A DNA stretch of 64,000 nt from Qipengyuania psychrotolerans (lineage in GTDB: Bacteria; Pseudomonadota; Alphaproteobacteria; Sphingomonadales; Sphingomonadaceae): the NCBI RefSeq assembly GCF_019711355.1, contig NZ_CP081297.1, forward strand, positions 558,001-622,000, written 5' to 3'. This document shows positions 36,024-52,690 of this stretch, piece after piece; the stretch's first letter is position 1; every line of letters starts with the position of its first letter. Below the pieces are notes generated by a model that was given only the letters and a program-made list of their open reading frames with translations, ran no database searches and was not told the origin of the DNA. A program made the translations under genes and the position numbers.

Positions 36024-36533
36024 AATTCTGGATCCTTAGGTACAGCAGCGGCACGGAGCGCATATAGCGCAGCCGCACTTTAATTCCAGAGCGGGCATGG
36101 ATAGCGTCAAAGGATTTCAGAATTTTTGACTATGTTAAGTGGTAGGACCGAGCGTGTGAACCCGCGAGGGGGGCCTAATAAGTGCAATTGAGCCGGCACT
36201 TCTAGAGGAAATGCACAGACGAACCCTGTGCGGGTAGTCGAATACGACAGAGGCTAAGCCAAGACCCAAAAGCAAGCGTCCGACCGAGCTGAACGATTGG
36301 TAAAATCGCATGACTTTCTCTGATCAACCCAGAGCGAAAGCTGCGCCCATCGGAGAGGTTGTGCGATTAGGCCCTAGCAATCATTCATTTTTCTAGAAGG
36401 ATCGCTCGAGATGCCAATGTCCACAATCGGGTCTTTAGCCGCCCGTCCGCTCCTGGCACATCGCTAGCTCGGTGATAGTGTCGCCAGATGGGTGGAAAGC
36501 GGACATCAGCACTCGTCAGGATTAGAACGAACT
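36024..36533. other. Non-coding gap with possible transcript and repeat copy 3
   Basis: No ORF. A TTGACT hexamer at about 36126 could be a -35 box. A hairpin GCACAG/CTGTGC lies near 36214-36232. Repeat copy 3 fills the right end. The stretch 36120-36400 is structured enough to be an untranslated RNA, but I recognise no family. Confidence 0.35.
36418..36505 (+). repeat. Dispersed repeat copy 3 (subfamily A)
   Basis: Begins TGTCCACAATCGGGTCTTTA, has GTGTCGCCAGATGGGTGG, and ends AAAGCGGACA. One of the best preserved copies; the outer TGTCC and GGACA are inverted, and CTGGCACA / TGTCGCCAG pair inside. Confidence 0.92.
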
Positions 36534-37220
36534 TTAGCGTGTGAATTGAGCTGCATCGTTGATCTCCGCAACCGCTTCAATGGCCCCCGCTTCTGCAGCG
36601 TCTTGAGCATCTGTCACCGCTCTGCGCGAGATCCGAAAGTCCAATGAGCGGGCCAACTCAATCGCTCCCGTCCGGGCGTCCACGATGATGAAGCGCGCCA
36701 GTTCAGGTTCGTCCCAGACAATCGCACTAAAGGTATTGTCATCTATCTGTTGTGTTGTGTCGAGTGCATCGATCGCACGCGCAATCGTGAACCGATCAAG
36801 TTCGGGAAAACTCACAAACACCAAATCGAAGACTGGTCGTTCGTCACGCACTGCGGTCTTAATCAGCGCGATGCGACCAATGTCGCCGACGGCTTTTTCT
36901 TGGTAGATCAAAGCACTTGGATCGTCGGCAACGCGAGTTACCTTGCCTGTGCCCATTGACACGTAGCGCACATTACGAACGGCATCTCGGTCGTCAGGAA
37001 CCTCGGATTTGTAAAAGGTTATGGTCCCTTCCGGTGTTTCAATCTCCTCGCCCGTTACGAGAGACTCTTCCGTTGGGGTTTCCCATTCTCTGTAGTCATC
37101 GAATTCTTGAACTTCCCTCCACGTATAAAAGGAAATTACCGCTGCTGCCACGACCGCCCAAGTCAAGACAATCGCTAGCGCGGCTTGATTGTAACGCCGG
37201 AGTAAACGAGCAAAGCGCAT
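36534..37220 (-). CDS. Membrane-anchored hypothetical protein, 228 aa
   Basis: One N-terminal membrane helix (AALAIVLTWAVVAAAVISF) is followed by a soluble domain of about 190 residues with mixed alpha/beta pattern (GRIALIKTAVRDERPVFDLVF shortened: ERPVFDLVFVSFPELDRF). It is probably periplasmic. I know no family. The ATG at 37220 is chosen over the 13-codon longer frame. It sits alone between repeat copies 3 and 4. Confidence 0.62.
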   Translation of the reverse strand: MRFARLLRRYNQAALAIVLTWAVVAAAVISFYTWREVQEFDDYREWETPTEESLVTGEEIETPEGTITFYKSEVPDDRDAVRNVRYVSMGTGKVTRVADDPSALIYQEKAVGDIGRIALIKTAVRDERPVFDLVFVSFPELDRFTIARAIDALDTTQQIDDNTFSAIVWDEPELARFIIVDARTGAIELARSLDFRISRRAVTDAQDAAEAGAIEAVAEINDAAQFTR

Positions 37221-37546
37221 TTTGTTGCCTCGAACGGGGTTCGATGATGGTGTTCGCACGATGTTGGCGATGGCGCAATTCTTGAACCATTGCTGCCGGT
37301 TCGCTTAGACAAGAATGTCCGTAATCGGGTCGTTAGCGGCTGGTCCGCTTCTGGCACAGCGCAAGCTCGGAAAATCGGTCACGAATTGGGTGGGAAGCTG
37401 CCGTTCCGCTCGCAGTAGCGCAGTCTGGCAATTCCCGCCTTGGTGTTCAATAGCTCGATATGAAAGGCGACCATATCGCTGGATCGATCATTCGGGCCCT
37501 GGCGGCTGTGAGACAAGAGTGCTTTCGCCCAAAGTGGAGATGGCAT
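37221..37546. other. Non-coding gap with repeat copy 4
   Basis: Divergent promoter region of the 228-residue protein and the receiver protein. Most of it is repeat copy 4; a fragment CTGCCGGTTCGCTTAG at about 37293 resembles the tail of copy 2 and may be a second, decayed end. Confidence 0.5.
37316..37406 (+). repeat. Dispersed repeat copy 4 (subfamily B)
   Basis: Begins TGTCCGTAATCGGGTCGTTA, has GGTCACGAATTGGGTGGG, and ends AAGCTGCCGTTC. Confidence 0.92.
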
Positions 37547-37915
37547 TTGTCGCATGTTCTCATCATCGAAGACGAAGTTCTGCTCGCATTTTCGGTCGAG
37601 GAAGCGCTTCGCAACCTCGGGTATTCAACTTTCGATATCGTCAAAAGTGCCCCTGAAGCCATAGAAGCGGCTGAACAGAAATGCCCCGACCTTATTATAG
37701 CTGACCATCAGCTTATCGATGGAACAGGAGTAGGCGCTGTAAAAGCGATCTGCGCAGACAAATCGATACCCGTAGTGTTCGTTACCGGTAGCCGAACCAA
37801 GGTACGCCAACATTTGCCAGAGGCATACGTTGTCGACAAGCCGTTCAACTTTCGGCGACTTAAGAGTGCCGTGTCTCGAGCTGTCGAGAAACCGTTCCGA
37901 TTTCAAAACAATTGA
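37547..37915 (+). CDS. Single-domain response regulator receiver
   Basis: A 122-residue receiver with nothing fused to it. HVLIIEDEV holds the acidic pocket, the phospho-acceptor is Asp53 in LIIADHQL, VVFVTGS has the switch Thr, and VDKPFN the conserved Lys. Lone receivers act as phosphate relays or by protein binding. I place the start at the TTG at 37547, after GGAG and directly before the receiver fold; the frame is open to an ATG at 37460 with an unlikely extra 29 residues. It lies alone between repeat copies 4 and 5. Confidence 0.82.
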   Translation: MSHVLIIEDEVLLAFSVEEALRNLGYSTFDIVKSAPEAIEAAEQKCPDLIIADHQLIDGTGVGAVKAICADKSIPVVFVTGSRTKVRQHLPEAYVVDKPFNFRRLKSAVSRAVEKPFRFQNN

Positions 37916-38237
37916 GGGTCCAATTTGACCGATACGCATCAGGAAGTAGCGTATCGCGATCGTACACTGACGCGCCAGCGACTGCCGCAATCGGGTCGTT
38001 AGCGGCTGGTCCCCTCCCGGCACATCGCCAGCTCCACAATTCAGTCACAAACTTGGGTTGTTACGCGACAGGCAGCTTTGCGGGCGCGAGTGCGAAAAAC
38101 GGTCATTGGACGGAAGGCGAAGCAGCGGCCGTTTGCGGACGGTTCGAATTTGACGTTGCTGAGATCCCAACGAATTTTCAGAAGCGCTCTCGCGTTACGG
38201 GAAACTTCCCACAAGAATAGAAGCAAACATGCAAAAA
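37916..38237. other. Non-coding gap with repeat copy 5
   Basis: Convergent 3' ends of the receiver gene and the TonB receptor gene. Holds repeat copy 5; nothing else recognised and no clear U-tract terminator. Confidence 0.5.
37982..38078 (+). repeat. Dispersed repeat copy 5 (subfamily B, diverged tail)
   Basis: Begins CTGCCGCAATCGGGTCGTTA; the middle reads CAGTCACAAACTTGGGTTG, and the end GGCAGCTTTGC pairs with the start CTGCC. Confidence 0.85.
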
Positions 38238-40454
38238 TCAGAACTTCTTGCGCAATGCGAGCTCGATCCATCGACCTGTCGGATCGCGATAGGCCTGCTG
38301 GTAAAGCAGCGGTGTGGTTCCGCTGGAATCCTGAACATCCTGTCGACTATTCGTGATGTTCCTGATTGCGAAGGTGAAGCGGGTGCCGCTCAGAAATTTT
38401 GAGTTCTGAGCAATCCGCCGACCTTCGATGAAAAATCGCAGATCTGCGGTTGATAGTGCCGAGAATCGGAAGGTTTCCATGTCGCCATCATCTGCCGCGC
38501 TTATGAAACCCGCACTTGAGTGTCTTGCGCTCGCCTCGGCTCCAATACCGCTGGCTCCGTAGCGCACCGTCAGATCGGCCTCATGACGCGATCGCCCACT
38601 TCCACCAAGGCCCAGAGCGCTTGGAGACAGTAGATCAATCGGGGCAAACCCTTGTGCAACCAGTATCTCGCTATCCAGTAATATCGCATGCGAGAACAGG
38701 ATTTGCAGTCGCTGAGGGATACCGATCCTTCTTGGCGGTTCGATGCCGGAACCGGCGCTTGCCGAGTTCTCCGAATAGACCGCGCCACCAAGCGGGAAGG
38801 ATAGTTCAAACGCATAGCGCAACCGTTTCTCGCTCTTCTGCGCAAAATTGAGCGGGCGTGTATCGACAGCGAGAAGACGCCCCGAGTCGTCACGTTCGAA
38901 GCGTTCGGGAAAGGCATCTAGAATGAGTGGATTAGCTGGTGGCAGCGCGGTAATTATGTTGCGGTTTCGGGTCGAAGAGAAGTCCGCAGTAAGGGCCTTT
39001 AGGCGGGAGCTTTGAGGTCTGATTTCCAATCCGAGGCGCCAATCATGATCGTCCTGTGTCAGAAGGTTCGGGGATCCACCTGTGATCGCGACAACATCGA
39101 CTGTTTGGTTCGACAAGGGATCGAAGTAGCGCGTGCCGGGTGTTGAGATGACCGGTGCCGAAAGGAGCTCCGTGCTAGGCGGGGCTTTGCCTGTCGAAAG
39201 CGATCCTGAGAGTCGCAACCAAGTTGCCGGACGCCAATTCAACGAGATAATTGAGTTCGAGAAGCTCTCTATGCCGCTATAGTCGGTAAACGATGCATCG
39301 ACACCAAGATCGATCGTGCCGATACCTCTCACAGGGCCGAGATCATCGTGCGTCAAGGGAATGGAGATACCGCCACTGAGCTGACGCATTGACTGGGTGA
39401 ACTCATCCCCTCCCGTTTGGATGGACTCGCTTGAAAATCGACCGCGAGCCGTCAAGGTCAAAGGGCCGGCAGGCAGCTGTACCACCGGCCGTGTGATGCC
39501 CAAGTCAGCCTCGAACCGCCGTAGTAGGGTGTCAATCTTGGGCTGTGGCGATTTGGGACCGGCCAGGACATTGTCGGTCAGCGTACGTCGTCGCGTGATA
39601 CCATAAGATGCGTTTGCTGTGACAAGCCATTCGTCGAATTGCCCGGTCAGCACGGCGTTGGTGCGAAATCTTTCCAGCAGAGCATCTTGCGTTAGCGCTC
39701 CGCCATTCGCGCCGATGCCCAGTTTCGAAACCGTACTACGTCGAAGGAACCGGGTGCTCACCACAGCCGTCAGGCTCGGCGAGAGAGCGTCGGAAATCGT
39801 ACCCCGAAGTCGCAATTCCCGGTTTTCCGGTAAAAGCGTGCGAAAGTCACCAAGGTTCGGTGACGAGGTGTCTGCTTGAACGATGTCACGTTCGCTCTCC
39901 AGTAGTGCCCCGTTGCCACGCACTTGGATGCCCAGATTGATGCGTCGTGGCGCTTCGATATGCGTGAAGTTGAATTCGCCATCGTATTGCTCGAAACCTC
40001 CGTCGGTCGCGGATGTCAGCGTGGCGTTCGCCAAATAGATGCTTGTGGACGGCTTGAGCCTGATGTTCACCACCCTTTGGCTGGCAGTGCCCCCCACTTC
40101 TGGTGCCGATCCCGGTGGAAACAGTTCAAGCTGGTCGATCGCTTCGGCCGGGAATTCCGATATGTCTTCAAGACCGCCGACCCGTTTGCCGTCGACCAGA
40201 AACACGATGTCGTCATCGGATCCCCCGTTCCGGGAACTGATCTCGTCCACCACTTCGCCAATGCTGTCGAACCCGTAAAAGGCGATGTCTTCTTCGCTAA
40301 AAACCTCGTCGGGACGGATGTCGAGCGTTGCTCTTTCGCCGCGCACGATGATGGTCCCGAAGGGGGCGGGACTATCTCCGCTCGGCTCGGTTCCAGTCTG
40401 CGCATGAATGGTACTGCTGCAGACTAACGCAACGACGGGGGCGAGCTTACGCAT
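38238..40454 (-). CDS. TonB-dependent outer-membrane receptor-like protein
   Basis: A 738-residue protein with a signal peptide (cut near IHAQT), a plug domain (about 30-150: GTIIVRGERATLD, FLVDGKRVGGLEDI) and a long beta-barrel. The last residues ELALRKKF end in Phe, as needed for barrel assembly. The plug reads more like the carbohydrate/peptide receptor type with an acidic DDDIVFLVDG block. No extended N-terminal signalling domain is present, so it does not itself feed an anti-sigma factor. The ligand is unknown. It shares direction with the CHRD and sigma/anti-sigma genes. Confidence 0.85.
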   Translation of the reverse strand: MRKLAPVVALVCSSTIHAQTGTEPSGDSPAPFGTIIVRGERATLDIRPDEVFSEEDIAFYGFDSIGEVVDEISSRNGGSDDDIVFLVDGKRVGGLEDISEFPAEAIDQLELFPPGSAPEVGGTASQRVVNIRLKPSTSIYLANATLTSATDGGFEQYDGEFNFTHIEAPRRINLGIQVRGNGALLESERDIVQADTSSPNLGDFRTLLPENRELRLRGTISDALSPSLTAVVSTRFLRRSTVSKLGIGANGGALTQDALLERFRTNAVLTGQFDEWLVTANASYGITRRRTLTDNVLAGPKSPQPKIDTLLRRFEADLGITRPVVQLPAGPLTLTARGRFSSESIQTGGDEFTQSMRQLSGGISIPLTHDDLGPVRGIGTIDLGVDASFTDYSGIESFSNSIISLNWRPATWLRLSGSLSTGKAPPSTELLSAPVISTPGTRYFDPLSNQTVDVVAITGGSPNLLTQDDHDWRLGLEIRPQSSRLKALTADFSSTRNRNIITALPPANPLILDAFPERFERDDSGRLLAVDTRPLNFAQKSEKRLRYAFELSFPLGGAVYSENSASAGSGIEPPRRIGIPQRLQILFSHAILLDSEILVAQGFAPIDLLSPSALGLGGSGRSRHEADLTVRYGASGIGAEASARHSSAGFISAADDGDMETFRFSALSTADLRFFIEGRRIAQNSKFLSGTRFTFAIRNITNSRQDVQDSSGTTPLLYQQAYRDPTGRWIELALRKKF

Positions 40455-40597
40455 GATGATTGGCTTCTTCCCGAGGACTGAAGGAATCCCGCTTCGCTGA
40501 GGTCGGCGAAGCTCGCGCGACCGATAGAGATAGAATGCGAGGGCAAAGACAGCCTGGCGACCGCCCTTGCCCTCGAATTATCGCATTTCAGGTGAGA

Positions 40598-41032
40598 TTA
40601 GCGCCCAAGCTGACCGCGAACAGCGCCGCCCGGATATTCGGCATTGTGTACATTAACGTAATAGCTTTCCGGATTCTTGATGATGTTCTTTGCAACGTCG
40701 CGGCTAACCGAAGCACAACCCTGACTGGTTCCGCCGGAAGGTGCCGAAAGGGTAACCACAACTGGGCCGCTCGTCCCCGCCTCACCGAGGTGGATATGGG
40801 CTGCCGCTGCAGGGTCGATATCGCTTACACGGAGCGAATAGCAAACACGCTCCTGGCCCGGATTGACGCTCATCGTTGCGCTTCCGAAACCATCCGGGTC
40901 ACCCGGACCGGGAACTTCGCTTTGGCCGTCGAGCGTTGCGGTAAAGGTCGCGCCGCCCGTGTGAGCCGCGCTCGCTCCGACCGCAGGTGCAAATGCAAGT
41001 GCGGCGGCGGAAAGGGCATGGATAATCTTCAT
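40598..41032 (-). CDS. CHRD-domain exported protein
   Basis: A 144-residue protein with a signal peptide (IIHALSAAALAFAPAVGASA) and one CHRD domain: FTATLDGQSEVPGPGDPDG at its start, AAAHIHLGEAGTSGPVVVTL in the middle and YYVNVHNAEYPGGAVRGQL at the end. CHRD domains are beta-sandwiches named after chordin; the bacterial role is unknown but HIHLG with histidines suggests a metal site. It lies between the sigma/anti-sigma pair and the TonB receptor and is likely controlled by that sigma factor. Confidence 0.85.
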   Translation of the reverse strand: MKIIHALSAAALAFAPAVGASAAHTGGATFTATLDGQSEVPGPGDPDGFGSATMSVNPGQERVCYSLRVSDIDPAAAAHIHLGEAGTSGPVVVTLSAPSGGTSQGCASVSRDVAKNIIKNPESYYVNVHNAEYPGGAVRGQLGR

Positions 41033-41249
41033 GGCATTTTCTCCTCTTCGTCCCCGAAAGTCCGTCATGGCATGGGTGCTGGGGACAACTGAAGCACCAA
41101 GAGCCCACGTGTGTCGGCCTGCCACTCAACTCGGATGACGAACGCAGCTACCCCGCAACCAATGGATCGGATGCAGTATGGTTAAAGTTTTTTGAGATTA
41201 GGCGGGTAGTGGGCTTAAGGTGCTGAACTAGTGAAGAAAAATTCTTCTG

Positions 41250-41999
41250 TCAGACCTGATCAAGCGTGCCTGCAAGCAAGATCGGCATAGTCGGCGTTTC
41301 GTGCCGCACGCCGGTATCTTCTTCGAAAGTCACGGCCAGTGTGGAGCCGGCCACTAGCAACCGCGCCTCGGCGGGGTCGATCTCACGATCGAATGTCCCA
41401 GTCTCGGGAATCGCGCCCAACGATACCGGAGCCCCGCCCGCGGGAATAACCCACAGTTCGGGCGTCTGTCCTGCTTCAGCCTCGAGGCCTGAAATATTCA
41501 AGGCGAGACGATTGTTATCGACATCGATCCTGCCGGCTAGCTTCCGTCCGCTTTCCTCATCTTGAAGCTGCGCGATCAGCTGGTCGCCCGGTGTAGCAAC
41601 CAGAGGTGGTTGGTCCGGAACCACTGTGGTGCGAGGGGTCGCGACGAAGAATACGAGACCGGCAATAGCCAATGCGACACCGCCGAAGAGCGCGGCCAGG
41701 CTCGACTGCGAGAGCCGCTTTGGGACCATGGGCGTCGGAGCGTCGTCATTCGCTGCTTCTTCTGCCTGGATCCGCGCTTCGATCCCACGCCACACGCTAG
41801 AGGACGGTACGAAGTTGCCAGCTGCTTCGCCCATGGCTCCGAGCCTCAACTCCCACCATTCGACAGCTTCCAAGAAGTCGCTATCGGCGAGGATCGCCCG
41901 TTGGGCATCCGCCAGCTCCTCTCCCTCGAGCACGCCAAGCACATATTCCCCGGCGAGAATAAAGGGATCGAGAGGAAGGATTTCTTCCGCGTCAGCCAC
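41250..41999 (-). CDS. Anti-sigma factor (RskA/ChrR-type)
   Basis: A 249-residue protein. Residues 1-60 form the sigma-binding zinc-less anti-sigma domain (DPFILAGEYVLGVLEGEELADAQ); one membrane helix (LAALFGGVALAIAGLVFFVA) lies near residue 110; the C-terminal periplasmic part is the RskA domain (TPELWVIPAGGAPVSLG). It should hold the ECF sigma factor at the membrane until a periplasmic signal triggers release. It overlaps the sigma gene by eight bases. Confidence 0.9.
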   Translation of the reverse strand: MADAEEILPLDPFILAGEYVLGVLEGEELADAQRAILADSDFLEAVEWWELRLGAMGEAAGNFVPSSSVWRGIEARIQAEEAANDDAPTPMVPKRLSQSSLAALFGGVALAIAGLVFFVATPRTTVVPDQPPLVATPGDQLIAQLQDEESGRKLAGRIDVDNNRLALNISGLEAEAGQTPELWVIPAGGAPVSLGAIPETGTFDREIDPAEARLLVAGSTLAVTFEEDTGVRHETPTMPILLAGTLDQV

Positions 42000-42543
42000 C
42001 GAGACATCCCCTAAGCCCGGCCAGCCCGCGTTTGATCCAGCTCTTCATCGTGCCAAGTGGCACATTGACCTTCTCGGCCAATTCGGAATGCGAAAACCCT
42101 TCGAAAAACGCCATCTTGATCGATCGACGATGATCGCCGCGCAGCTCCTCAAGGCATTTTTCAAGCGCGGCGCTGTCCTCTGCAGCACAGAGCCAGTCAT
42201 CTGCCGCTACGAGGTTCGTGTCGGCCACCTCGGGGAACTCGTCGTCCGGAATTTCTTGTTTGCGACCACTGCGGCGCAAGTCATTCAGCGCCGAATTGCG
42301 CGCGATGGCGCAGAGCCAGGTGATCGGACTGCCCTTGGCCGGATCGAAGCGAGCGGCGCGCCGCCAGACCTTCACATATACTTCTTGGAGAATATCTTCT
42401 GCACGTTCTCTTTGCCGCACGATACGCACGATGGTCGAGAACACCTTGCTCGACGTCATTTCATAGACGCGTTCAAGAGATTGACGGTCGCCCCTCCCGG
42501 TCGCCGCCAGTGCCTCCTTCAGTTCTGTACGACGATCAGTCAA
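41992..42543 (-). CDS. ECF sigma factor (SigK-like)
   Basis: A 183-residue extracytoplasmic-function sigma factor. Region 2 spans residues 20-90 (AEDILQEVYVKVWRRAARFD) and region 4 residues 125-180 (RSIKMAFFEGFSHSELAEKV, PLGTMKSWIKRGL). It pairs with the RskA-type anti-sigma factor, with which it overlaps by eight bases. The start is a TTG after AGGGGG, which would lower its translation. Likely targets are its own operon and the CHRD gene. Confidence 0.92.
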   Translation of the reverse strand: MTDRRTELKEALAATGRGDRQSLERVYEMTSSKVFSTIVRIVRQRERAEDILQEVYVKVWRRAARFDPAKGSPITWLCAIARNSALNDLRRSGRKQEIPDDEFPEVADTNLVAADDWLCAAEDSAALEKCLEELRGDHRRSIKMAFFEGFSHSELAEKVNVPLGTMKSWIKRGLAGLRGCLGG

Positions 42544-42618
42544 TTAACCCCCTAGGGAGGAGACTGCCCTATTTTGGCCTATTGTCAATTGGCTGTTGGT
42601 CAAACGCCACCTTCTTGA

Positions 42619-42706
42619 TGTCCGCATTCGGGTCGTTAGCTGACGGTCCGCTTATGGCATCTCACTAGCTCGGTGAAACAGGCGCGAAGTGGGTGGATCC
42701 CGGACG
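42619..42706 (+). repeat. Dispersed repeat copy 6
   Basis: Begins TGTCCGCATTCGGGTCGTTA and ends GGGTGGATCCCGGACGC; middle CAGGCGCGAAGTGGG is intermediate between the two types. It ends 7 bases from the stop of the zinc-ribbon gene. Confidence 0.9.
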
Positions 42707-42713
42707 CTCTTCC

Positions 42714-42989
42714 TTAGCTGGTGAAGCGATCGCCGCACTTGCTACACTTCGAAGTCGGGAAGAAATTCGGAATTCCCCATTTTGAAAAAATTGTCGTTCC
42801 GCAAGTAGGGCACGGAAAGCGCCTGGCTTGAACGCGCATGTAAATTGCAATCACAAGAGTTAATCCAACGAAAATCGCGTAGCTGACATCGCGCCCTACG
42901 AACGTTGGTGGACTTGCTACCGTCAAGGCAAAGACTAACAAGACGGCGGCAAGCATCTTGAGAGAAAACTTCCAAGCTTGAGCATACAT
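42714..42989 (-). CDS. Small membrane protein with zinc ribbon, 91 aa
   Basis: Two membrane helices (MLAAVLLVFALTVAS and YAIFVGLTLVIAIYM) are followed by a cytoplasmic zinc ribbon with two CxxC knuckles, CPTC and CSKC. Such small proteins may bind nucleic acid or protein at the membrane. No named family. It stands alone, flanked on both sides by repeat copies 6 and 7. Confidence 0.7.
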   Translation of the reverse strand: MYAQAWKFSLKMLAAVLLVFALTVASPPTFVGRDVSYAIFVGLTLVIAIYMRVQARRFPCPTCGTTIFSKWGIPNFFPTSKCSKCGDRFTS

Positions 42990-43050
42990 TTCGAGGTCTT
43001 AGCCCTTCCATCGGCAACGAGGCGCTCTCGGGTATGCATTTGCTCGGTTG

Positions 43051-43140
43051 CGACCGCAATCGGGTCGTTAGCCGCGCGTCCGCTTCTGGCAGATCGGTAG
43101 CTTGTTGAAAGCGTCACAAGATGGGTGGATAGCAGAAGGT
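43051..43140 (+). repeat. Dispersed repeat copy 7 (subfamily A)
   Basis: Begins CGACCGCAATCGGGTCGTTA, has GCGTCACAAGATGGGTGG, and ends ATAGCAGAAGGTC; the tail is worn. Confidence 0.88.
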
Positions 43141-43175
43141 CTGGTTTCGACCAAAGAACCGTATATACCGGATAT

Positions 43176-44057
43176 ATGGTTACACGCTTTTCGCAGTCCA
43201 TCGTGCGTTTAATTGCAGCCGTGTGCCTAACAGTTTCATGTCCTATCGCAGCGCAAGAAAGCGCCAGAATCGACGGATCGCTCTCTCATCTGCCTTCATT
43301 GCGCGGCGACTATTTCTTGCTTGGTTCGCAAGAAGTCGGAAGGGATTACCATATCTACATCCGTCTCCCAGAAAACTACGACGAATTGGAAGAAACCAAG
43401 TTTCCGGTCGTCTTCCTCCTCGATGGAGATTCCACCTTTCCGATGCTCGCACCGCTTCATCTGTTCATGAATTATGACGACCAAATCCCGGAAGCGATCA
43501 TTGTCGGCATCGCATATGGGGGCTTCGATCCCGGCGTGAACAAGCGCCACGTGGACTTTCGCGTGATCATGGATGACGGAAGCGCAGGCGGAGCCCTACC
43601 ATTCCTTGCGATGCTCGAAAATGAACTGATCCCGCAGATCGACGCGCGTTACCGAACCGAACCGACGCGACGGATTCTCTTCGGGCAAAGCCGGGGTGGC
43701 AGTGCCGTTTTGCAGGCCGCCTATCTCAAGCCCGGCCTGTTCTGGGGGCATGTCGCGAGCAATCCTGGACGCGAGCCGGACACCCGGCTCCTGTTCGGCA
43801 TGGATCGCGAGGTCGATGCGAAGGACAAGGATGGATATCTGATCGTTGCCTCCGGCTCCGATGATCGAGATTATCTTCGCGGTACCGCTCTTGAATGGAG
43901 AGATACCATCGCTTCCCGAGATGACCTGCCGTGGGATACGAGATTTATCGACATCGAAGGCGGGACGCACGCTGCCAATCTTGGGGATGCTTATAGGTCA
44001 GCTTGGCGAATCATGTTTTCGGACCGCCCAGCGAAAGTTACGGAGACTCAGCCATAG
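43176..44057 (+). CDS. Exported esterase of the alpha/beta-hydrolase fold
   Basis: A 293-residue protein with a signal peptide (cut near CPIAAQ). It belongs to the putative esterase (esterase D / IroE-like) family: FPVVFLLDGDSTF is the oxyanion region, ILFGQSRGGSAV holds the nucleophilic Ser, and GTHAANLG the catalytic His. Substrates of the family include siderophore esters and trehalose or acyl esters; here it is open. It stands alone between repeat copies 7 and 8. The ATG at 43176 starts the signal peptide. Confidence 0.83.
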   Translation: MVTRFSQSIVRLIAAVCLTVSCPIAAQESARIDGSLSHLPSLRGDYFLLGSQEVGRDYHIYIRLPENYDELEETKFPVVFLLDGDSTFPMLAPLHLFMNYDDQIPEAIIVGIAYGGFDPGVNKRHVDFRVIMDDGSAGGALPFLAMLENELIPQIDARYRTEPTRRILFGQSRGGSAVLQAAYLKPGLFWGHVASNPGREPDTRLLFGMDREVDAKDKDGYLIVASGSDDRDYLRGTALEWRDTIASRDDLPWDTRFIDIEGGTHAANLGDAYRSAWRIMFSDRPAKVTETQP

Positions 44058-44103
44058 AAGATTGAAAGGGCCCGCTTCAGTGATGATCGAAGCTTTTTCT
44101 ATC

Positions 44104-44953: not shown

Positions 44954-45059
44954 TTGGATGACCTCCCCTTGCGCAAGTCATGCAGTAAAGCTTTTGGCTT
45001 GGCAAATCAGAGCGTTCGTCCATGGCCTAATAGCGCCCCCATCTCATTTTAATGGGTGG

Positions 45060-45146: not shown

Positions 45147-45151
45147 TCCTG

Positions 45152-45421: not shown

Positions 45422-45448
45422 GTGGGAGCCTTTGCCTTCGGATTGCGA

Positions 45449-45537
45449 TTGCCACAATCGGGTCGTCAGCCGCCCGTCCGCTCCTGGCACATCGCTAGAG
45501 CGGTGAAACTGGCGCCAGATGGGTGGAAAGCGGACGT
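45449..45537 (+). repeat. Dispersed repeat copy 10 (subfamily A)
   Basis: Begins TTGCCACAATCGGGTCGTCA, has TGGCGCCAGATGGGTGG and ends AAAGCGGACG. Confidence 0.92.
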
Positions 45538-45617
45538 TCGATTGCGCCCCTGGAAAGCCTCTTCATGAGCAAGGTGAAGCCGCACAGAAGAGCAGAGTAA
45601 GCAGATATTACCAACGA

Positions 45618-47342
45618 CTAAAAGCGCGAGCGCGTAAGTTCGATATCTGCCTTGGACCAGACGATACGGAAGTTCTTCGTAATTTCGTCCGTCGGTTTAT
45701 TTTGCGCTTCGAGTGAAGCGATAAGGCCCGCCATTGACCATCCGTTGCGTGGGTAGTCTTCTAAGTCTTCGCGATAAACCTTTTCAGCGTCCTCCGGCCT
45801 GTCAATTTCTAGAAGCGCTTGGCCGAGTGACTGCCGAGTTGGATAATACCAGAAAGGCGGCTCCATGTATGGAAGCTCGTCCTGCAGCGATACCGCATGT
45901 TCAAAAGCGGATATCGCCTTATCTTGGCTGCCACTGGCTAGGGCTATTTCACCTTCTAGAAGGTTATTTGCGATGTTTAGCAATGTCGACGCGGGATAGT
46001 CCGCACCGTCGAGGAACCGTATTTGGACGGTGTCCTTCAATTTAGTGAGCCTCGAAAGCTCAGCCTCTGCTCCCGAAAGGTTCCCCTTGTGAACCATGGC
46101 TATGCCGCGGGCGTAGCTCAATATGGCGGTCGAGTAATCACGCGGCGTCGGCGGTTCGGATAACGAGAGAATATCGTCCCATTTCCCGAACTGCACCAAG
46201 GTTAGCAAGGGGATGGTCTTGAAAAACTCGACAGTCGCGAACTGCTCAATCTGCTCCATATGCACGTTTGTAGCCAGCTTCCGTGCCGCATCGAGTGCCA
46301 TGGTGCTTTGGCCAGACATACTGCTGGCGGCCCATAAGAAATGGATGTTGTGGGGATAGTATGCCGCCGGGTAGAACCCCTGCGCATTGCAGGCCGCAAT
46401 GTAATCCTCATCCACAGCAGCCGCTTTGATATTCGCTTTCGCGGCGTCATCGTAACGTCCGATCCGCCAATAAATGTGCGAGGGCATATGAACGAGATGA
46501 CCCGATCCCGGAACCAGCGTCAGCAAGCGGTCTGCTTCGTCTTCGGCCACTCCGGGTGCAGCTGATGCCTCAACTGCGTGAATGTAGAGGTGCAAAGCTA
46601 GGGGGTGGTTGGGGCTGCGCTCGAGAATCCGCTCAAGAGATGCGATGATTTTGCGCGTATCGTCCTTCGGCGCTCCTTGATCGGACCAGTAGTCCCACGG
46701 CATCAGGTTCATTAGTGATTCTGCGTAGATCGCAGCGGCATCATCGTCTTCGGGAAACAGCGCAACATAGCGTCCCATCGCATCCGCATAGGCTTGGTCG
46801 AGCGGGTAGCGTTCAGTGCTCGGGTCGCCGTTGTAACGTGCGGCTTGGGCTTCGATCAGTCTCGCCTCTCCAGCGCTAGCCCCCATACGCAAATCCATCG
46901 CCTTGCTGATGGCAGCATGCGCGGCCAAGCGTTGCTCATCGCTCATCACGGCTCGGCCTTTGGAAGTAACGTTAATGTTGGGCCCGGTTGCTAATGCTTC
47001 ACCCCAGAAACACATTGCACAGGATGGATCCAGACGTTGCGCAGCGCGGAACGAGCGGATTGCCTCGGCATGATTGAAGCCGAAAGTGAGAACCATGCCT
47101 TGGTTGAAATAGCGTTGAGCCAACGTTTCCGTCGTCGTTATCGGACGATGATACTCTCCCATCCCATCGAAGAGGGGCGCTCCGCTATCTTGAGCGACCT
47201 TGATCCGATTTGCGGTGTCGACTGCATCAATCGATGTAGAGATCAAATCTTCGTCTGGAACGCCTGATGAGGCGCAGCCTGAGAGCGCGATCGCAACAAG
47301 GCCTGTTGTAAAGGTTAGAGTAAACCGGGCGTCGAGCATCAT
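45618..47342 (-). CDS. TPR-type lipoprotein, 574 aa
   Basis: A signal sequence ends in the lipobox LSGC (about residue 23), so the protein is a lipoprotein. The body is made of helical repeats: NHAEAIRSFRAAQRLDPSCA is a clear TPR unit near residue 95, and others follow (RYDDAAKANIKAAAVDEDYI; QDKAISAFEHAVSLQDELPY). HLVHMPSHIYWRIGRYDDA is a block I have seen in large periplasmic TPR proteins of this kind. Role unknown, perhaps protein or ligand binding at the outer membrane. The start is ATG at 47342 after TTTGGAGAAT. Flanked by repeat copies 10 and 11. Confidence 0.8.
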   Translation of the reverse strand: MMLDARFTLTFTTGLVAIALSGCASSGVPDEDLISTSIDAVDTANRIKVAQDSGAPLFDGMGEYHRPITTTETLAQRYFNQGMVLTFGFNHAEAIRSFRAAQRLDPSCAMCFWGEALATGPNINVTSKGRAVMSDEQRLAAHAAISKAMDLRMGASAGEARLIEAQAARYNGDPSTERYPLDQAYADAMGRYVALFPEDDDAAAIYAESLMNLMPWDYWSDQGAPKDDTRKIIASLERILERSPNHPLALHLYIHAVEASAAPGVAEDEADRLLTLVPGSGHLVHMPSHIYWRIGRYDDAAKANIKAAAVDEDYIAACNAQGFYPAAYYPHNIHFLWAASSMSGQSTMALDAARKLATNVHMEQIEQFATVEFFKTIPLLTLVQFGKWDDILSLSEPPTPRDYSTAILSYARGIAMVHKGNLSGAEAELSRLTKLKDTVQIRFLDGADYPASTLLNIANNLLEGEIALASGSQDKAISAFEHAVSLQDELPYMEPPFWYYPTRQSLGQALLEIDRPEDAEKVYREDLEDYPRNGWSMAGLIASLEAQNKPTDEITKNFRIVWSKADIELTRSRF

Positions 47343-47864
47343 ATTCTCCAAAGAATACGGACAGGGTTGAACGACTCCGAGGACGGAACATTAGCATCGA
47401 AAATACCGCGTTCGCAAATTTGGGTCGCGCCACGGTCAGATGATCTGCTCACCGAAGACCATGAGGAATGTCTGCAATCGGGTCGTTAGCTGCCGGTCCG
47501 CTCTTAGCGCACCGCTAGTTCGGCAAATCAGGCACGAATTGGGTGGAATCCGGTTCGTCTGCTGTTGGGCAGTCAGGCGAAAGAAGCGGACATCTATTGG
47601 GTCGGATTAGCGCGGGAGCTTAGCGCTCTAATGCCGGTCATTTGAATTGGAACGCAAGATTTTCGCGGATGCTGATGGTTTGGTGTAGCGTTCCTATTCT
47701 GCGAGAAGTTAAGGCAATCGCACGTGACCGACCGGTTCTTGATGTTCAATATCGAGAATTAAACGGGAGGCCGCCGATTTGGCGTCAAATACAACGCTCC
47801 ATGCCACTGCGGTTTCAACGATAGCATCCTAGACAATTCCTATTGGAAACACGGGAATTGAACA
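47343..47864. other. Non-coding gap with repeat copy 11
   Basis: Divergent promoter region for the TPR lipoprotein and the glutamine operon. Repeat copy 11 takes the left third. I looked for a sigma-54 box (TGGCAC-N5-TTGC) before the operon and found none; no other gene seen. Confidence 0.5.
47469..47557 (+). repeat. Dispersed repeat copy 11 (subfamily B)
   Basis: Begins TGTCTGCAATCGGGTCGTTA, has CAGGCACGAATTGGGTGG, and ends AATCCGGTTCG. Confidence 0.92.
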
Positions 47865-48155
47865 ATGACTATCAAACTGGACAAGGTTGTGTCCGCCCTT
47901 GCCGCGCTGATGATCAGCACCGCCTCACTTGTGGTGGTCACTGACGCGCAGGCGAGAGAGCGTGAAGATTATGACCTAAGCGATAAGGCTCGGTGCATGG
48001 CCCGTACTTACGGTCCGTCGCACCATCCGCTGCGCAAACGGCGCAGCATTGAATGCAGTGGTGATGAAATCCTCGAGGAAGGCACAAAGACGGTAAGCCC
48101 TCCCTGTGCCGACTTCGTCCCGACACAGAAAAACCCAAAAGGATTAAGACTATGA
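47865..48155 (+). CDS. Small exported protein coupled to glnII, 96 aa
   Basis: A signal peptide (VVSALAALMISTASLVVVTDAQA) precedes a mature part of about 65 residues. The front of this (REREDYDLSDKARCMARTYG) looks normal, but the rest (HHPLRKRRSIECSGDEILEE to the end) is low in pattern and could come from a frameshift. Its stop overlaps the glnII start (ATGA), so translation is coupled. No family recognised. A leader-peptide role for glnII is possible but speculative. Confidence 0.6.
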   Translation: MTIKLDKVVSALAALMISTASLVVVTDAQAREREDYDLSDKARCMARTYGPSHHPLRKRRSIECSGDEILEEGTKTVSPPCADFVPTQKNPKGLRL

Positions 48156-49225
48156 GTCTAGCAGAATATATCTGGCTGGACGGCAATCGCCCCACCCAAG
48201 GACTCCGTGCCAAGACGCGCTTTGTGAACATCAAGAACCAAGATGCGTGTCCTGAAAACTTTCCGGAATGGAGCTTCGATGGCTCGTCAACCCTGCAAGC
48301 CGAAGGTTCCGATTCAGACTGCGGACTGAAGCCGGTATGTGTGGTTGCCGACCCCATCCGCGGCGCCGACAATTTTCTCGTGCTGTGCGAAGTGCAAAAT
48401 GCCGACGGAAGCAATCATGCTAGCAACTCTCGGGCAAGCCTGCGAGCAGTCCTAGCCGCAGGCGGCGAAGAGCGGAATGCGTGGATCGGATTCGAACAGG
48501 AATACACCCTCTATCAAGGTGGACGCCCGCTGGGCTTCCCGGCGACCGGCTATCCCGAACCGCAGGGCCCCTATTATTGCAGCATCGGTGCTGACCGCGC
48601 ATTCGGTCGGATGATCGCTGATGAACATGCGCAGCTCTGCCTTGATGCTGGTCTTCTATACTATGGCCTCAATGCCGAAGTGATGCCGGGTCAATGGGAA
48701 TTCCAGATCGGCTATCGTGGGTTTGAAGGTGACGACCCAGGCCTGCTGAATGCAGCTGATCACATGTGGATCGCCCGCTACCTTCTCGATCGCGTTGCCG
48801 AAAAACATGGCGTTCTCGTTTCTTACGATAACAAGCCCATGAAGGGTGACTGGAACGGCGCCGGAATGCACACCAACTTCTCATGTTCGAGAACTCGAGC
48901 TGTTGGCGGTCTGGATGCGATCTACGAGGCTGTCCGCCGGCTCGCCCACAAGCACGACCAGCACATCGCAGTCTATGGCGACCGACTTGAGGAACGGCTC
49001 ACGGGTGCGCATGAAACCTGTTCGATAAGTGAGTTCAAGGCAGGCGGGGCAGATCGCGGGGCTTCCATCCGCATTCCACTGGGTGTGGAGCGGGCGGGGT
49101 TCGGCTATTTCGAAGACCGCCGTCCTGGCGCAAATGCCTGTCCTTACCGGGTGGCAGCCCGCATCGCTTCTACGGTGTTCGGCATTGAAATCGAAGACCA
49201 TTCAAAGATGGCGCTAGTCGCCTGA
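48152..49225 (+). CDS. glnII: Glutamine synthetase type II (eukaryotic-type GSII)
   Basis: GSII makes glutamine from glutamate, ammonia and ATP. The 357-residue size and motifs are those of the octameric/decameric eukaryotic-like enzyme, not the 470-residue GSI: EWSFDGSSTLQAEGSDSD at the N-terminus, WIGFEQEYTL and NAEVMPGQWEFQIG as metal/ATP sites, and GAGMHTNFS for substrate binding. Ribosome site AAAAGGA precedes the ATG. GSII is best known from rhizobia and actinomycetes. A glutaminase gene follows directly, encoding the reverse reaction. Confidence 0.95.
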   Translation: MSLAEYIWLDGNRPTQGLRAKTRFVNIKNQDACPENFPEWSFDGSSTLQAEGSDSDCGLKPVCVVADPIRGADNFLVLCEVQNADGSNHASNSRASLRAVLAAGGEERNAWIGFEQEYTLYQGGRPLGFPATGYPEPQGPYYCSIGADRAFGRMIADEHAQLCLDAGLLYYGLNAEVMPGQWEFQIGYRGFEGDDPGLLNAADHMWIARYLLDRVAEKHGVLVSYDNKPMKGDWNGAGMHTNFSCSRTRAVGGLDAIYEAVRRLAHKHDQHIAVYGDRLEERLTGAHETCSISEFKAGGADRGASIRIPLGVERAGFGYFEDRRPGANACPYRVAARIASTVFGIEIEDHSKMALVA

Positions 49226-49267
49226 CCTCGACACCAGTCCTCTAGACACCCCAGACACGTCGAGGTC

Positions 49268-49303
49268 GCGACCGGGTGTGCAGCGTCCCGCACATCCGGT
49301 CGC
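49268..49303 (+). promoter_or_regulatory. Long hairpin between glnII and glsA
   Basis: A 14-bp stem (GCGACCGGGTGTGC with GCACATCCGGTCGC, one G-U pair) around an 8-base loop lies in the 98-base gap. No U-tract follows, so it is more likely an mRNA stabiliser or an attenuator that separates expression of the two opposing enzymes than a full terminator. Confidence 0.6.
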
Positions 49304-49323
49304 ACCCCCCAGGGAGAAAATAC

Positions 49324-50916
49324 ATGGTTACGCTCAAGAGCATTCCTGCGGATTCAAAGGCATTTGCAGCTGAACACCTTATCAAATCGTTGAAGAGTGA
49401 ACACACACAAGCGGTATCCAATGCCATGTTGATCCGCGCACTTGAGGAAATGGGGCTCCAGCGGGCCGATCCGCGCCTTTCCTCGCTTTTCGCAAAACTC
49501 GACGACATGCCAGAAAGCGGGACGCTCGACGAAGACGGGCTGCGCTACTTGCTGGGTGAAGTTGAGGCTTCCCTAGTAGGTCGTGCACTGTCGGGCTCGC
49601 TCGTCATTCCTGCATTCGATGAGTTCAGGGACCAACTCGACACAATATTTGATGCCTGCCGCGACGAAGCCAGCGGATCCGTGGCAAGCTACATCCCGCA
49701 GCTAGCGAGGGTAGACCCCGAGAAGTTTGCAATGGCCGTATGCACTATCGATGGCCAACGCCATTCGGTGGGGGACGATCATGATAGTTTCTGCGTGCAA
49801 TCGACCTGCAAGCCTGTGAACTATGCGATCGCACATGGTCTCTCCAGCGCGGACTCGATCCATAGCCATGTCGGTCGCGAACCATCCGGACGTTCGTTCA
49901 ACGAACTTACCTTAAACCCTGCCGGCTTGCCCCACAATCCGATGATCAATGCCGGCGCCATCATGGCCAGTTCGCTGATCAAGCCGGAGGAAAGCTTGGC
50001 CGATCGGTTCGACTTCGTGATGTCGAAATGGCGCGAGCTAGGCGGTGGTGCAGAACCGGGTTTCGACAATACGGTTTTCCTCTCGGAAAAAGCGACAGCT
50101 GACCGGAATTTCGCATTGGCCTATTTTATGCGAGAGAACGGCGCATTCCCTCCCAATACGAACTTGATGGAAACACTCGATTTCTATTTCCAGTGCTGCT
50201 CGATACGGATCGACGTTAGGCATATGGCGATCATTGCTGCCACGCTGGCAAATGGCGGTGTATGTCCAACAACGAGCCAGCGTGTGCTCGATGCCGAGTC
50301 AGTTCGGAACTGCCTCTCTCTGATGTATTCCTGCGGGATGTACGATTATTCCGGTGAATTCGCATTCACAGTCGGTATTCCCGCGAAGTCGGGCGTTTCG
50401 GGAGCCCTCATGTTGGTTGTTCCCGGCGTCTGCGGCTTTGCAATCTGGAGTCCGCGACTGGATCGATGCGGAAACAGCGTGCGTGGTGTACGGTTCGCCC
50501 AAGAACTTTCTAAGAAATACTCATTCCATAGTTATGCAACCATGGTCCAAGGGCAGGGACTCATCGACCCGACCAAGTCACAGGTCGAGCGCGCAGCGGA
50601 AGTGGCAAGCTCGCTTTGTTCGGCTGCTTCGGTCGGCGATCTGAGCGAATTGAGACGATTGGTTGCCAGCGGGGCGGACATCCTGCAAGCGGACTACGAC
50701 GGAAGAACGGCCCTTCACCTCGCTGCATCCGAAGGTCGTATTGGTGTTGTGCATTTTCTCCTGTCGATTGGGGCTAATGCAAAGCAGAAAGACCGCTGGG
50801 GCAATACAGCCCTCGCCGATGCAAAGCGTGAGGGTAAGGCAGATGTGGTGGAGATACTCTCCGCCATAGAGGCAGCCGAACCTATCAAACCCAAGCTGCG
50901 CCAAAGAGCCGCTTGA
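49324..50916 (+). CDS. glsA: Glutaminase with N-terminal helical and C-terminal ankyrin regions (animal-type)
   Basis: Glutaminase hydrolyses glutamine to glutamate and ammonia. The 530 residues are arranged like animal kidney-type glutaminase: an EF-hand-like helical front (1-110, LIRALEEMGLQRADPRLSSL), the beta-lactamase-like catalytic domain (115-415) with Ser160-x-x-Lys163 in QSTCKPVNY, GREPSGRSFNEL and PHNPMINAGAI, and two ankyrin repeats (about 450-515, DGRTALHLAASEGRIGVVHF). Short bacterial glutaminases lack both flanking parts. Start ATG at 49324 follows GGGAGAAA. It lies between glnII and a regulator-hydrolase gene. Confidence 0.93.
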   Translation: MVTLKSIPADSKAFAAEHLIKSLKSEHTQAVSNAMLIRALEEMGLQRADPRLSSLFAKLDDMPESGTLDEDGLRYLLGEVEASLVGRALSGSLVIPAFDEFRDQLDTIFDACRDEASGSVASYIPQLARVDPEKFAMAVCTIDGQRHSVGDDHDSFCVQSTCKPVNYAIAHGLSSADSIHSHVGREPSGRSFNELTLNPAGLPHNPMINAGAIMASSLIKPEESLADRFDFVMSKWRELGGGAEPGFDNTVFLSEKATADRNFALAYFMRENGAFPPNTNLMETLDFYFQCCSIRIDVRHMAIIAATLANGGVCPTTSQRVLDAESVRNCLSLMYSCGMYDYSGEFAFTVGIPAKSGVSGALMLVVPGVCGFAIWSPRLDRCGNSVRGVRFAQELSKKYSFHSYATMVQGQGLIDPTKSQVERAAEVASSLCSAASVGDLSELRRLVASGADILQADYDGRTALHLAASEGRIGVVHFLLSIGANAKQKDRWGNTALADAKREGKADVVEILSAIEAAEPIKPKLRQRAA

Positions 50917-50935
50917 AGGTTGAAGGGGTAGCGAA

Positions 50936-52522
50936 ATGCTTCAGATTGATCTCCTTGGCTCAGTTTCCGTGAGCGAATATGAAAAGAGCATTGCGCTTCC
51001 TGCATCACGCAAGACGAGGGCGCTCATCGCATTTCTGGCTATCGAGACAGGTCCACATACCCGCTCGGCGCTATGCGATATGTTCTGGGAAATACCTGAT
51101 GATCCGCGAGCATCTCTCCGCTGGTCGCTCAGCAAGCTGCGCACCGTCCTAAATTCGGATGGTCACGAGAGGCTCTTGGCTGATCGACAAAGTGTGCATC
51201 TCGAACTGAAAGATGCCGCGGTTGACTATTTGTCAGTTCGAGAGGCCATTCGAAATCCCGCTGGAGGTATCGATGATCTGATAAAGGCATGGGACATGTC
51301 CGGCAGCGAATTGCTGGAAGACTGCGAACTCTCGAACCAAGCGGATTTCATGATCTGGCTTGGTCAGCAGCGCAACGAGCTCTCGAGAATGCGATTTGAA
51401 ATTGCCAAGCGTGTGGCATTGGCAGACCAGCTTTCGACTACAGATCGGGACAGGTGGGCCGAACGCTGGCTGAACGAGGCCCCGTTTGATTACGAGGCGG
51501 CTGAAAATGCAGTTGCTTCCAAACGTGCAATCGGGATGGAAGCCCAAGCTGTACAACTCACTGCAGACCTCCAGCGAAGTTTCCGCGAAGCAGGGTTGCC
51601 TACACCGGGTTTTTCCAGAGAGAGCCTGTCCGCGCCGGGACCCGCACCGACCGTCGGGCTGGCAATGAAGGCTGCAGCGCCGCGGCAATCTATTCGCTTT
51701 GTGCAGGCAAAGGATAGAACCTCCATTGCATGGGCAAGTGTAGGCGGAAGGGATAATCCTCCGCTTATCAAGGCCGCGAACTGGCTAAATCATCTGGAAT
51801 TGGACTGGGAGGCACCGATCTGGAGTCCACTTTTTCGGGAGCTGGCGAAATCCTTTCATCTCGTTCGTTATGACGAGCGTGGTTGTGGTCTATCCGATTG
51901 GGAAGTCCCCGAAATCGATTTCGAGAGCTTCGTCGATGACCTAAAGCTGGTTGCCGATGCTTCAGGCTTGGAAACATTTCCTCTGCTCGGCATCAGTCAG
52001 GGCGCTGCGGTGTCCATTGAATTCGCAGCGCGCTATCCTGAGCGGGTTAGCAAGCTGATCCTCTTCGGTGGCTATCCGTGCGGTTGGCGGCACACCGCGA
52101 AAGAAGAGGAAGTGCGCGAACGCGAAGCCGTGATGGTGCTCACTGAAACGGGTTGGGGACGCGACAATCCCGTCTATCGTCACATGTTCTCGCAAACTTT
52201 CATGCCGGATGCGACAGTCGATGAATTGGCGTGGTTCGACGAATTTCAACGCTTGACGACTTCACCAGAGAATGCGGTGAGGTTTCTAGAAGCCTTTTCC
52301 ACACTCGACGTTAGACATAGCCTAGCGAAGGTTAAGTGTCCGACACTGGTCGTTCATTCTCAACGGGATCAACGTATCCCTCTTGCTGTCGGTGTAAATA
52401 TGGCTTCGCAGATACCCCATGCTCGCTTCTTGAGCGTCAACAGCAATAACCACCTGCTCTTGGGTAGAGAACTTGCCTCGACGCAATTCGTTCGGGAGGT
52501 CGCGGATTTCCTGCTGGATTAG
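50936..52522 (+). CDS. SARP/BTAD-type regulator fused to an alpha/beta hydrolase
   Basis: A 528-residue fusion. Residues 1-90 are a winged helix of the AfsR/SARP type (SRKTRALIAFLAIETGPHTR, RASLRWSLSKLRTVL), followed by a BTAD-like helical region to about 210. Residues 245-528 are an alpha/beta hydrolase: LLGISQGAAVSIEF holds the nucleophilic Ser, HSQRDQRIP the Asp and NSNNHLLLG the His, so the enzyme part looks active. This suggests a transcription factor that binds or hydrolyses a small molecule. It starts 19 bases after glsA, so it belongs to the glutamine operon. Confidence 0.82.
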   Translation: MLQIDLLGSVSVSEYEKSIALPASRKTRALIAFLAIETGPHTRSALCDMFWEIPDDPRASLRWSLSKLRTVLNSDGHERLLADRQSVHLELKDAAVDYLSVREAIRNPAGGIDDLIKAWDMSGSELLEDCELSNQADFMIWLGQQRNELSRMRFEIAKRVALADQLSTTDRDRWAERWLNEAPFDYEAAENAVASKRAIGMEAQAVQLTADLQRSFREAGLPTPGFSRESLSAPGPAPTVGLAMKAAAPRQSIRFVQAKDRTSIAWASVGGRDNPPLIKAANWLNHLELDWEAPIWSPLFRELAKSFHLVRYDERGCGLSDWEVPEIDFESFVDDLKLVADASGLETFPLLGISQGAAVSIEFAARYPERVSKLILFGGYPCGWRHTAKEEEVREREAVMVLTETGWGRDNPVYRHMFSQTFMPDATVDELAWFDEFQRLTTSPENAVRFLEAFSTLDVRHSLAKVKCPTLVVHSQRDQRIPLAVGVNMASQIPHARFLSVNSNNHLLLGRELASTQFVREVADFLLD

Positions 52523-52612
52523 ATATCCGCCAAGTGCCTTCTCCCCATGCCGGGCCCTTAGGTTCTGTCCTATCGAATGGCCGGTTTCGGGAGACGAACC
52601 TAGGCGAGGAAA

Positions 52613-52656
52613 TGTCGCAAACCGGGTCGTTAGCTGACAGGCAGCTTCTCGACAAA
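52613..52656 (+). repeat. Dispersed repeat copy 12 (5' half only)
   Basis: TGTCGCAAACCGGGTCGTTA followed by GCTGACAGGCAGCTTCTCG; the right half is missing. Confidence 0.75.
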
Positions 52657-52663
52657 AGGGGCC

Positions 52664-52690
52664 AATAGCGGACGGTCAGCTAACGGCCCC
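52664..52690 (-). repeat. Inverted fragment of the dispersed repeat
   Basis: Read on the minus strand it gives GGGGCCGTTAGCTGACCGTC, the same head as copy 12. The two heads face each other, the only inverted pair I found. Confidence 0.65.

Follow-up and report, generated by a model that had tools for sequence, protein, structure and literature searches.

A probable orphan cassette array of an integron-like gene-capture system in Qipengyuania psychrotolerans

How did a row of genes facing both ways come to be separated by repeats that all face the same way? The question is raised by a 64,000-nt stretch of Qipengyuania psychrotolerans DNA (the window; bases 558,001-622,000 of the single 2.74-Mb contig of this genome, NZ_CP081297.1), in which 11 full copies of a ~90-nt element lie between 27.2 and 47.6 kb, every one on the + strand, with genes between them on both strands. 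A first-pass annotation had described the region from 36.4 kb onwards as a cassette-like array whose units are bounded by repeats 3-11, all pointing in one direction. Full elements are indeed present at these junctions between 36.4 and 47.6 kb, the gene order agrees with open reading frames (ORFs) and Pfam matches (the labels DUF6090 and TonB/CHRD/sigma being that annotation's own), and the likeness to cassettes is borne out by related genomes, where cassettes shared between species start at the repeat core and a recombinase gene with an attI-like site heads the arrays. The locus is probably an orphan array of cassettes belonging to a gene-capture system that is integron-like without being an integron, a reading supported by shared edges, repeat orientation, association with a recombinase, placement on an island, and empty sites. 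With less assurance, we lean towards a second, independently arisen capture platform in Sphingomonadales and perhaps other Alphaproteobacteria, which would use a tyrosine recombinase consisting of a catalytic domain only, double-stranded core pairs, and cassette exchange between lineage-specific spacer slots.

Each full element has GGGTCGTTAGC as its 5′ core and GGGTGGAAAGC as its 3′ core, with a core distance of 61 nt in nine and 62 nt in two of the 11 window copies. The consensus of the family, from the 100 longest of 137 aligned matches, is AtGTCCGCAATCGGGTCGTTAGCtGCCcGTCCGCTCCTGGCACAtCGCTAGCTCGGTgAAAccGTCaCgAgaTGGGTGGAAAGCGGACgt; the two cores are similar to each other and the outer arms, GTCCGC and GCGGAC, are inverted. 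Genomes compared are labelled G followed by a number (G000 being the window's own), and loci taken from them L. When a model built from the window copies was run on the 2.74-Mb genome, 24 sites matched at E ≤ 0.01 (of 1249 first-look candidates, 150 were scored), and since 11 of the 24 are the full copies within a 20-kb stretch of the window, their clustering there is more than chance. Repeat matches were found in 33 of 61 genomes searched, corresponding to 33 of 37 from the same genus and 0 of 24 from elsewhere in the order. For counts of strand, spacing and cassettes, the stronger matches were taken from three match sets (99 of 137, 8 of 38 and 51 of 87, with lowest scores used of 46.8, 42.5 and 48.6 bits), and both cores were present in 151 of these 158. 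Of the 151 copies, 121 had a core distance of 61 nt and 24 one of 62 nt, and strong matches no more than 3 kb apart, in the window genome and its relatives, agreed in strand in 90 cases and disagreed in none. One family repeat was also seen on the mobilizable plasmid pWH01K of Erythrobacteraceae bacterium WH01K, between two GNAT genes (L345 5998-6089), with a gene of ~400 codons annotated as a tyrosine recombinase 3 kb away.

Denser rows occur in relatives. The G027 array packs 19 copies into 11.4 kb, neighbours being separated by about one ORF, and G065 and G083 have similar rows. Contig ends of G027 and G033 fall inside repeats, as expected because near-identical copies meet the assembler there. 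Cassette bodies shorter than 4 kb (n = 96) have a median length of 655 nt; in the 66 shorter than 1.3 kb, the longest mechanically called ORF covers a median of 86% and is oriented opposite to the array in 43 bodies and in line with it in 23. Of ten G027 cassette proteins, eight lacked a Pfam match at E ≤ 0.01 and one scored above a family cut-off (DUF7674). Dense rows of this kind have one repeat per junction. In the window, repeats 2 and 3 enclose several genes in 8.7 kb, so not every unit corresponds to one gene.

The main evidence for mobile units comes from cassettes shared between species, which were sought by comparing whole loci against each other and every body against all fetched loci. 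Shared cassettes include G034/G029 (2757 nt, 99.9% identical), G019/G034 (682 nt, 99%), G033/G065 (320 nt, 99.7%), G027/G029 (373 nt, 98%), G026/G032 (320 nt, 89%) and G033/G015 (605 nt, 84%). Seven inter-genome pairs covered at least 90% of the body, and in six of them homology starts at body base 1-3, directly after GGGTGG. A body is defined as starting at the core, so more weight falls on whole-locus comparisons, which leave the edge free: here homology begins at (T)GGGTGG in G000/G027, G019/G034 and G034/G029, and the edge of G000/G010, obtained in a search with window DNA, likewise falls at (T)GGGTGG. Nine pairs were aligned at the core, having been picked because their homology reaches it (a case starting 95 nt inside the body and partial body matches were excluded); all six core bases are equal in eight and five of six in one, while 10-41 of the 59 nt upstream agree, the value of 41 being two spacers at background likeness. 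In both G034/G029 and G019/G034, one copy lies within an array and the other at an attI-like site, a single core that shares just the core region with the array repeat. The attI-like site holding the shared cassette comes after a broken recombinase gene in G034, and after the same kind of leader in G029.

At the right edge, homology stops after GGGTCGTTAGC in five of six inter-genome pairs, and the repeat middle is at background likeness (0.54-0.74; random spacer pairs have a likeness of 0.69, sd 0.08). In G033/G065 the repeat middle was transferred too (0.96), and homology stops at the second core. The cassette common to G000 and G010 is flanked by cores 61 nt apart in G000 and 96-97 nt apart in G010, so the repeat middle seems to belong to the recipient lineage. 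Core spacings in the G010 array are 96, 97 and 97 nt and that in G001 is 97 nt (loci L306 and L302, respectively); since these are not 61 nt, the spacer type seems to be lineage-specific. The long spacers of G065 (~428 nt; L287 2102-2290, 5339-5763 and 9384-9811) end in a copy of the array-head leader plus attI-like site, a hint that spacers derive from leaders.

The first-pass annotation had proposed a search of flanking DNA for a tyrosine recombinase; a small one was found at array heads in relatives, and none of its relatives was found in G000. Directly upstream of the G027 array lies the end of a tyrosine recombinase gene, truncated beside a transposase ORF. This ORF, presumably of IS6 type from its appearance, abuts the broken gene at L123 4747-5484. 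At E ≤ 1e-15, relatives of the recombinase were present in 33 of 60 genus genomes (manual count), in 65 of 246 genomes and 20 of 71 genera of the order, and in 14 of 337 genomes of the class, where the sites behind the genes are mostly different. Many genes of the family are broken. Intact proteins are ~210-231 aa long and comprise the catalytic domain alone; PF00589 was the sole match of four tested (69-81 bits, cut-off 27.1). R82, K110, H179, R182 and Y214 are invariant in 21 recombinases and H205 is present in 20, and we assign these as the putative catalytic residues. The predicted fold has a mean pLDDT (predicted local distance difference test) of 76 and a pTM (predicted template modelling score) of 0.70, with residues 1-27 and 35-43 under 50, and the model resembles XerA, XerH, a Tn1549 integrase and Cre, with the integron integrase 2a3v matching at a lower level.

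The recombinase stop codon is followed by a GC-rich terminator-like hairpin, recognized by eye, and then by the attI-like core, in which inverted arms GTCC..GGAC surround a centre with GGGTGG. Such inverted arms about an asymmetric centre correspond to the layout of a dif or lox site. The core motif occurs within 140 nt of the stop in 34 of 67 loci, at 42-87 nt and on the same strand, as compared with 372 of 20,000 windows drawn at random from these loci (1.9%); among other genera it follows the gene in 11 of 22. Closely related loci (L201/L194, L199/L204 and L202/L203) match as far as the core and then diverge. Among the eight loci nearest to the enzyme of G027 (end pieces 98-100% alike), four have a window-type repeat within 4 kb downstream on the same strand; of the remaining four, three hit a contig end within 2.9 kb and one (G066) has no repeat. 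Taking all recombinase loci together, 24 repeats located no more than 4 kb downstream share the strand of the gene and three lie on the opposite one (manual count, each repeat once), and genomes with the enzyme are richer in repeats (18 vs 19 genomes, one-sided Mann-Whitney P = 0.001). A distant relative of the recombinase, in another family, is followed by the inverted-repeat site GAGTCCGCTTTTAGCCAAAAGCGGACTC (just after L279 8905), and sites like this may mark the enzyme family more widely.

No relative of the small recombinase was detected in G000 at E ≤ 1e-4 with the end-piece query or at 1e-25 with the whole query, and neither translation nor tblastn with the relatives' recombinases gave anything convincing in the window for a remnant at the 26.02-kb half-site that opens the array. 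G000 does encode three PF00589 proteins (reading frames of 304, 326 and 420 aa), none near the array, and two of these may be XerC and XerD, judging by size. Since the recombinase is absent there, the window array is probably fixed, or moved only in trans.

The array itself lies on an island beside a tRNA gene. Its features are as follows, in window coordinates, with strand where one applies; numbered repeats were located with the repeat model.

25677-54366: island holding the array, 28.7 kb (left neighbour gene adjoins the tRNA directly in 7 related genomes)
26021-26059, +: attI-like half-site with a single GGGTGG core, direct-repeat family; no recombinase gene adjoining
26033-27216: cassette with PAS histidine kinase ORF (26061-27146, -); homology to G027 cassette, Pfam
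27206-27309, +: repeat 1
27609-27710, +: repeat 2
27689-36428: multi-gene stretch of 8.7 kb between repeats 2 and 3 (kinase-receiver, RadC-like, others)
36416-36515, +: repeat 3
36496-37326: cassette with 241-aa ORF (-), no Pfam match; homology to G010 cassette
37314-37416, +: repeat 4
37394-37992: cassette with receiver-domain ORF (+); Pfam
37982-38089, +: repeat 5, 3′ core degenerate
38061-42629: 4.6-kb block with 738-aa, 175-aa and two more ORFs, all - (the TonB/CHRD/sigma block of the first-pass annotation)
42617-42725, +: repeat 6
42697-43061: cassette with small zinc-ribbon-like 91-aa ORF (-); Pfam match below cut-off
43051-43151, +: repeat 7
43129-44113: cassette with esterase ORF (+); Pfam
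44102-44202, +: repeat 8
44181-45068: cassette with 246-aa ORF (-); Pfam search
45058-45163, +: repeat 9
45136-45459: cassette with small ORF (-)
45448-45555, +: repeat 10
45527-47479: cassette with 577-aa TPR ORF (-); Pfam
47467-47570, +: repeat 11
47547-52612: 5-kb glutamine block with small ORF, glutamine synthetase, glutaminase and alpha/beta hydrolase, all +; ORFs, Pfam
52613-52649, +: half-site with 5′ core only, array end (16.2 bits)
54368-54443, -: tRNA-Thr(TGT) flanking the island; ARAGORN, Rfam

In seven relatives (G031, G027, G029, G034, G033, G065 and G011) the left neighbour gene is directly followed by tRNA-Thr(TGT), and because of this empty site the 28.7 kb are taken as an island beside the tRNA gene. 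The same tRNA-Thr site in G083, G019, G036, G012, G075, G070 and G035 (stretches L338-L344) contained no repeat, and a pattern scan of these stretches gave a single weak core match (L339). A 350-aa ORF beyond the tRNA (window 54453-55505) is likewise absent from G031, G027, G029 and G034, in which some 30-40 bases separate the tRNA from the next gene.

The opening half-site at 26,021-26,059 was an addition to the repeats listed previously. Homology to a G027 cassette begins at base 26,033 and runs to 27,162 with 87.5% identity over 1131 columns. A G010 cassette shares 75% identity with the one bounded by repeats 3 and 4, the homology starting at TGGGTGG (window 36,489). What had been counted as repeat 12 proved to be a half-site with the 5′ core rather than a full element; a weak opposite-strand repeat match (20.9 bits) lies right after it at 52,659-52,700. 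Relatives of the sigma portion of the 4.6-kb block occur in 14 genomes (manual count), and L307, the sole such locus checked for cores, has just one weak opposite-strand match. The glutaminase is 89% identical to an Aurantiacibacter marinus protein; in A. marinus (L009) the small ORF, glutaminase and hydrolase are contiguous, with no synthetase gene and one weak half-match to the repeat. In the window, the glutamine synthetase gene (48152-49225) stands between the 96-aa ORF and the glutaminase gene, which are adjacent in A. marinus. Since the relatives of the large multi-gene blocks in the loci checked (L009 and L307) sit outside arrays, these blocks may be island passengers rather than ordinary cassettes.

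A mechanism can be proposed in which circular intermediates, action of the enzyme on these sites, double-stranded recognition and the exchange step are all inferred from the sequences. In relatives that have kept the enzyme, its gene lies upstream of the array on the same strand, followed by the terminator-like hairpin and one attI-like core, and each repeat comprises two cores and a ~60-nt spacer. A cassette, mostly 0.3-3 kb with its gene in either direction, starts at a GGGTGG core and ends at a GGGTCGTTAGC core. By joining cores as double-stranded dif/lox-like sites, the recombinase could excise cassettes, insert them at the attI-like site, or exchange them between arrays of different species. 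Recombination of the left GGGTGG core with the right GGGTCG core would yield a circle with one site, able to enter another core. If a cassette went in and its neighbour was then lost (cassette exchange), the recipient's spacers would stay in place, as observed.

Several observations weigh against this interpretation. The seventh of the pairs covering at least 90% of the body starts 95 nt inside it, and many shorter body matches lie within bodies. The G034 array sharing a cassette with G019 has a broken recombinase gene, no recombinase was found beside the attI-like site in the fetched G029 locus, 33 of the 67 recombinase loci lack the motif at the threshold used, and G000 and G031, with 22 and 12 repeats, have no such recombinase at E ≤ 1e-15. 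A simple one-site model does not predict that the repeat middle mostly stays behind (five of six pairs). Spacer-free junctions, expected from simple insertion, are almost absent: inside the 96 bodies there are four on the same strand and none on the opposite (0.1 expected per strand), with long G065 spacers accounting for two of the four. Arms within cassettes, which should covary if the two cassette ends pair, did not do so (57 cassettes, 5.96 pairs vs 5.97 in permutations). Half-repeats in the other orientation occur among weaker matches, those excluded from the counts being partly on the opposite strand (e.g., L126 15186-15280, 37.1 bits, and L138 4661-4716). The 8.7-, 4.6- and 5-kb stretches are unlike typical cassettes, and the large blocks resemble ordinary gene clusters. 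Finally, no two otherwise equal arrays were seen to differ by exactly one gene together with one repeat, the pattern of gain or loss put forward earlier. The relatives did not show the opposite pattern either, in which neighbouring genes are retained and repeats are gained or lost.

Could the same arrangement arise in other ways? Ordinary homologous recombination between dispersed repeats might swap the intervening genes with no dedicated enzyme, and the likeness of ~70% between repeats, the arrays that lack a recombinase, and an intragenomic G033 case in which homology continues through the spacer to the second core are all compatible with this. Cassette edges, however, fall at a core of 6-16 nt even between an attI-like site and a repeat otherwise little alike, and the spacers of two arrays remain different around the same cassette (~97 nt in G010 vs 61 nt in G000), so we regard this explanation as unlikely. 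An insertional origin, by which a dispersed repeat resembling a miniature inverted-repeat transposable element or a repetitive extragenic palindrome entered between island genes, would account for the single copies elsewhere in G000 and on the plasmid. It is at odds with strand agreement of 90:0, with dense rows having one repeat per junction, and with cassette edges inside the repeat, and it appears very improbable indeed.

The overall plan of recombinase, single site, cassette array and orphan arrays would also fit an integron whose attC sites are unusual and whose integrase has diverged. The attC box motif is RYYYAAC...GTTRRRY, but no such pair was seen at the repeat ends by eye in aligned copies (no attC model was run), and four recombinases of relatives scored 19-26 bits against integrase_gron (cut-off 265), in line with the earlier report of neither attC ends nor an integron integrase. 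The repeat fold is neither conserved nor covarying (in 25 repeats the consensus energy was -6.75 and the covariation term 0.13, with 1 of 12 pairs changed on both sides), the arms of a cassette lack covariation, and Rfam identified a tRNA and nothing else in the window. We thus consider an aberrant integron improbable and favor a separate, integron-like capture system.

To our knowledge, no well-known system other than the integron uses site-specific recombination to store single mobile genes in rows. If the present interpretation is true, gene collecting in rows evolved more than once, the second time with another enzyme and another kind of site; this would shed light on the variable rows of genes in a large group of bacteria from which integrons are reported to be absent, and would suggest a function for the small recombinase family found in 65 of 246 genomes sampled from the order. 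Integrons are stated to be entirely absent from Alphaproteobacteria (PMC9668308). Tyrosine recombinases are divided in part of PMC8138268 into simple (core-binding plus catalytic domain) and complex types, and that part contains no mention of a catalytic-only cassette recombinase. A literature search found no description of such arrays, although this is weak evidence since preprints and many journals are outside its coverage.

Among known systems, the small recombinases are most readily set beside several families. Those of FimB/FimE type are also ~200 aa with a catalytic domain only, yet they invert one segment between inverted repeats, whereas the sites here are direct and many; the score against PRK09871 (NCBIfam tyrosine-type DNA invertase) was 17-20 bits, far under the cut-off of 222. 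Shufflons (Rci) likewise combine repeated sites with a tyrosine recombinase, but their sites are inverted and parts of one gene are shuffled, whereas neighbouring strong repeats here are direct (90 of 90). With Xer/dif and Cre/lox the system shares inverted arms around an asymmetric centre and a predicted fold matching XerA, XerH and Cre; unlike these, no N-terminal core-binding domain is seen here, and there are rows of gene cassettes. GInt islands (ginABCD) also have tyrosine recombinases and varied cargo, but differ in gene set, with three integrases and a helix-loop-helix protein, and insert as a single island (PMC5385486). The closest parallel in plan remains the integron, with its recombinase gene beside a single site, its row of small cassettes separated by one repeated site, cassettes common to several species, and orphan arrays without an integrase. 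Two features by which integrons are recognized, the attI-like site by the recombinase (34 of 67 loci of relatives) and the sharing of cassettes as units, are found here as well. In contrast to integrons, the recombinase has a catalytic domain only, is not IntI and points towards the array; the repeats are core pairs with nearly fixed spacing and no conserved hairpin; the repeat middle is mostly left behind; and the genes run in both directions.

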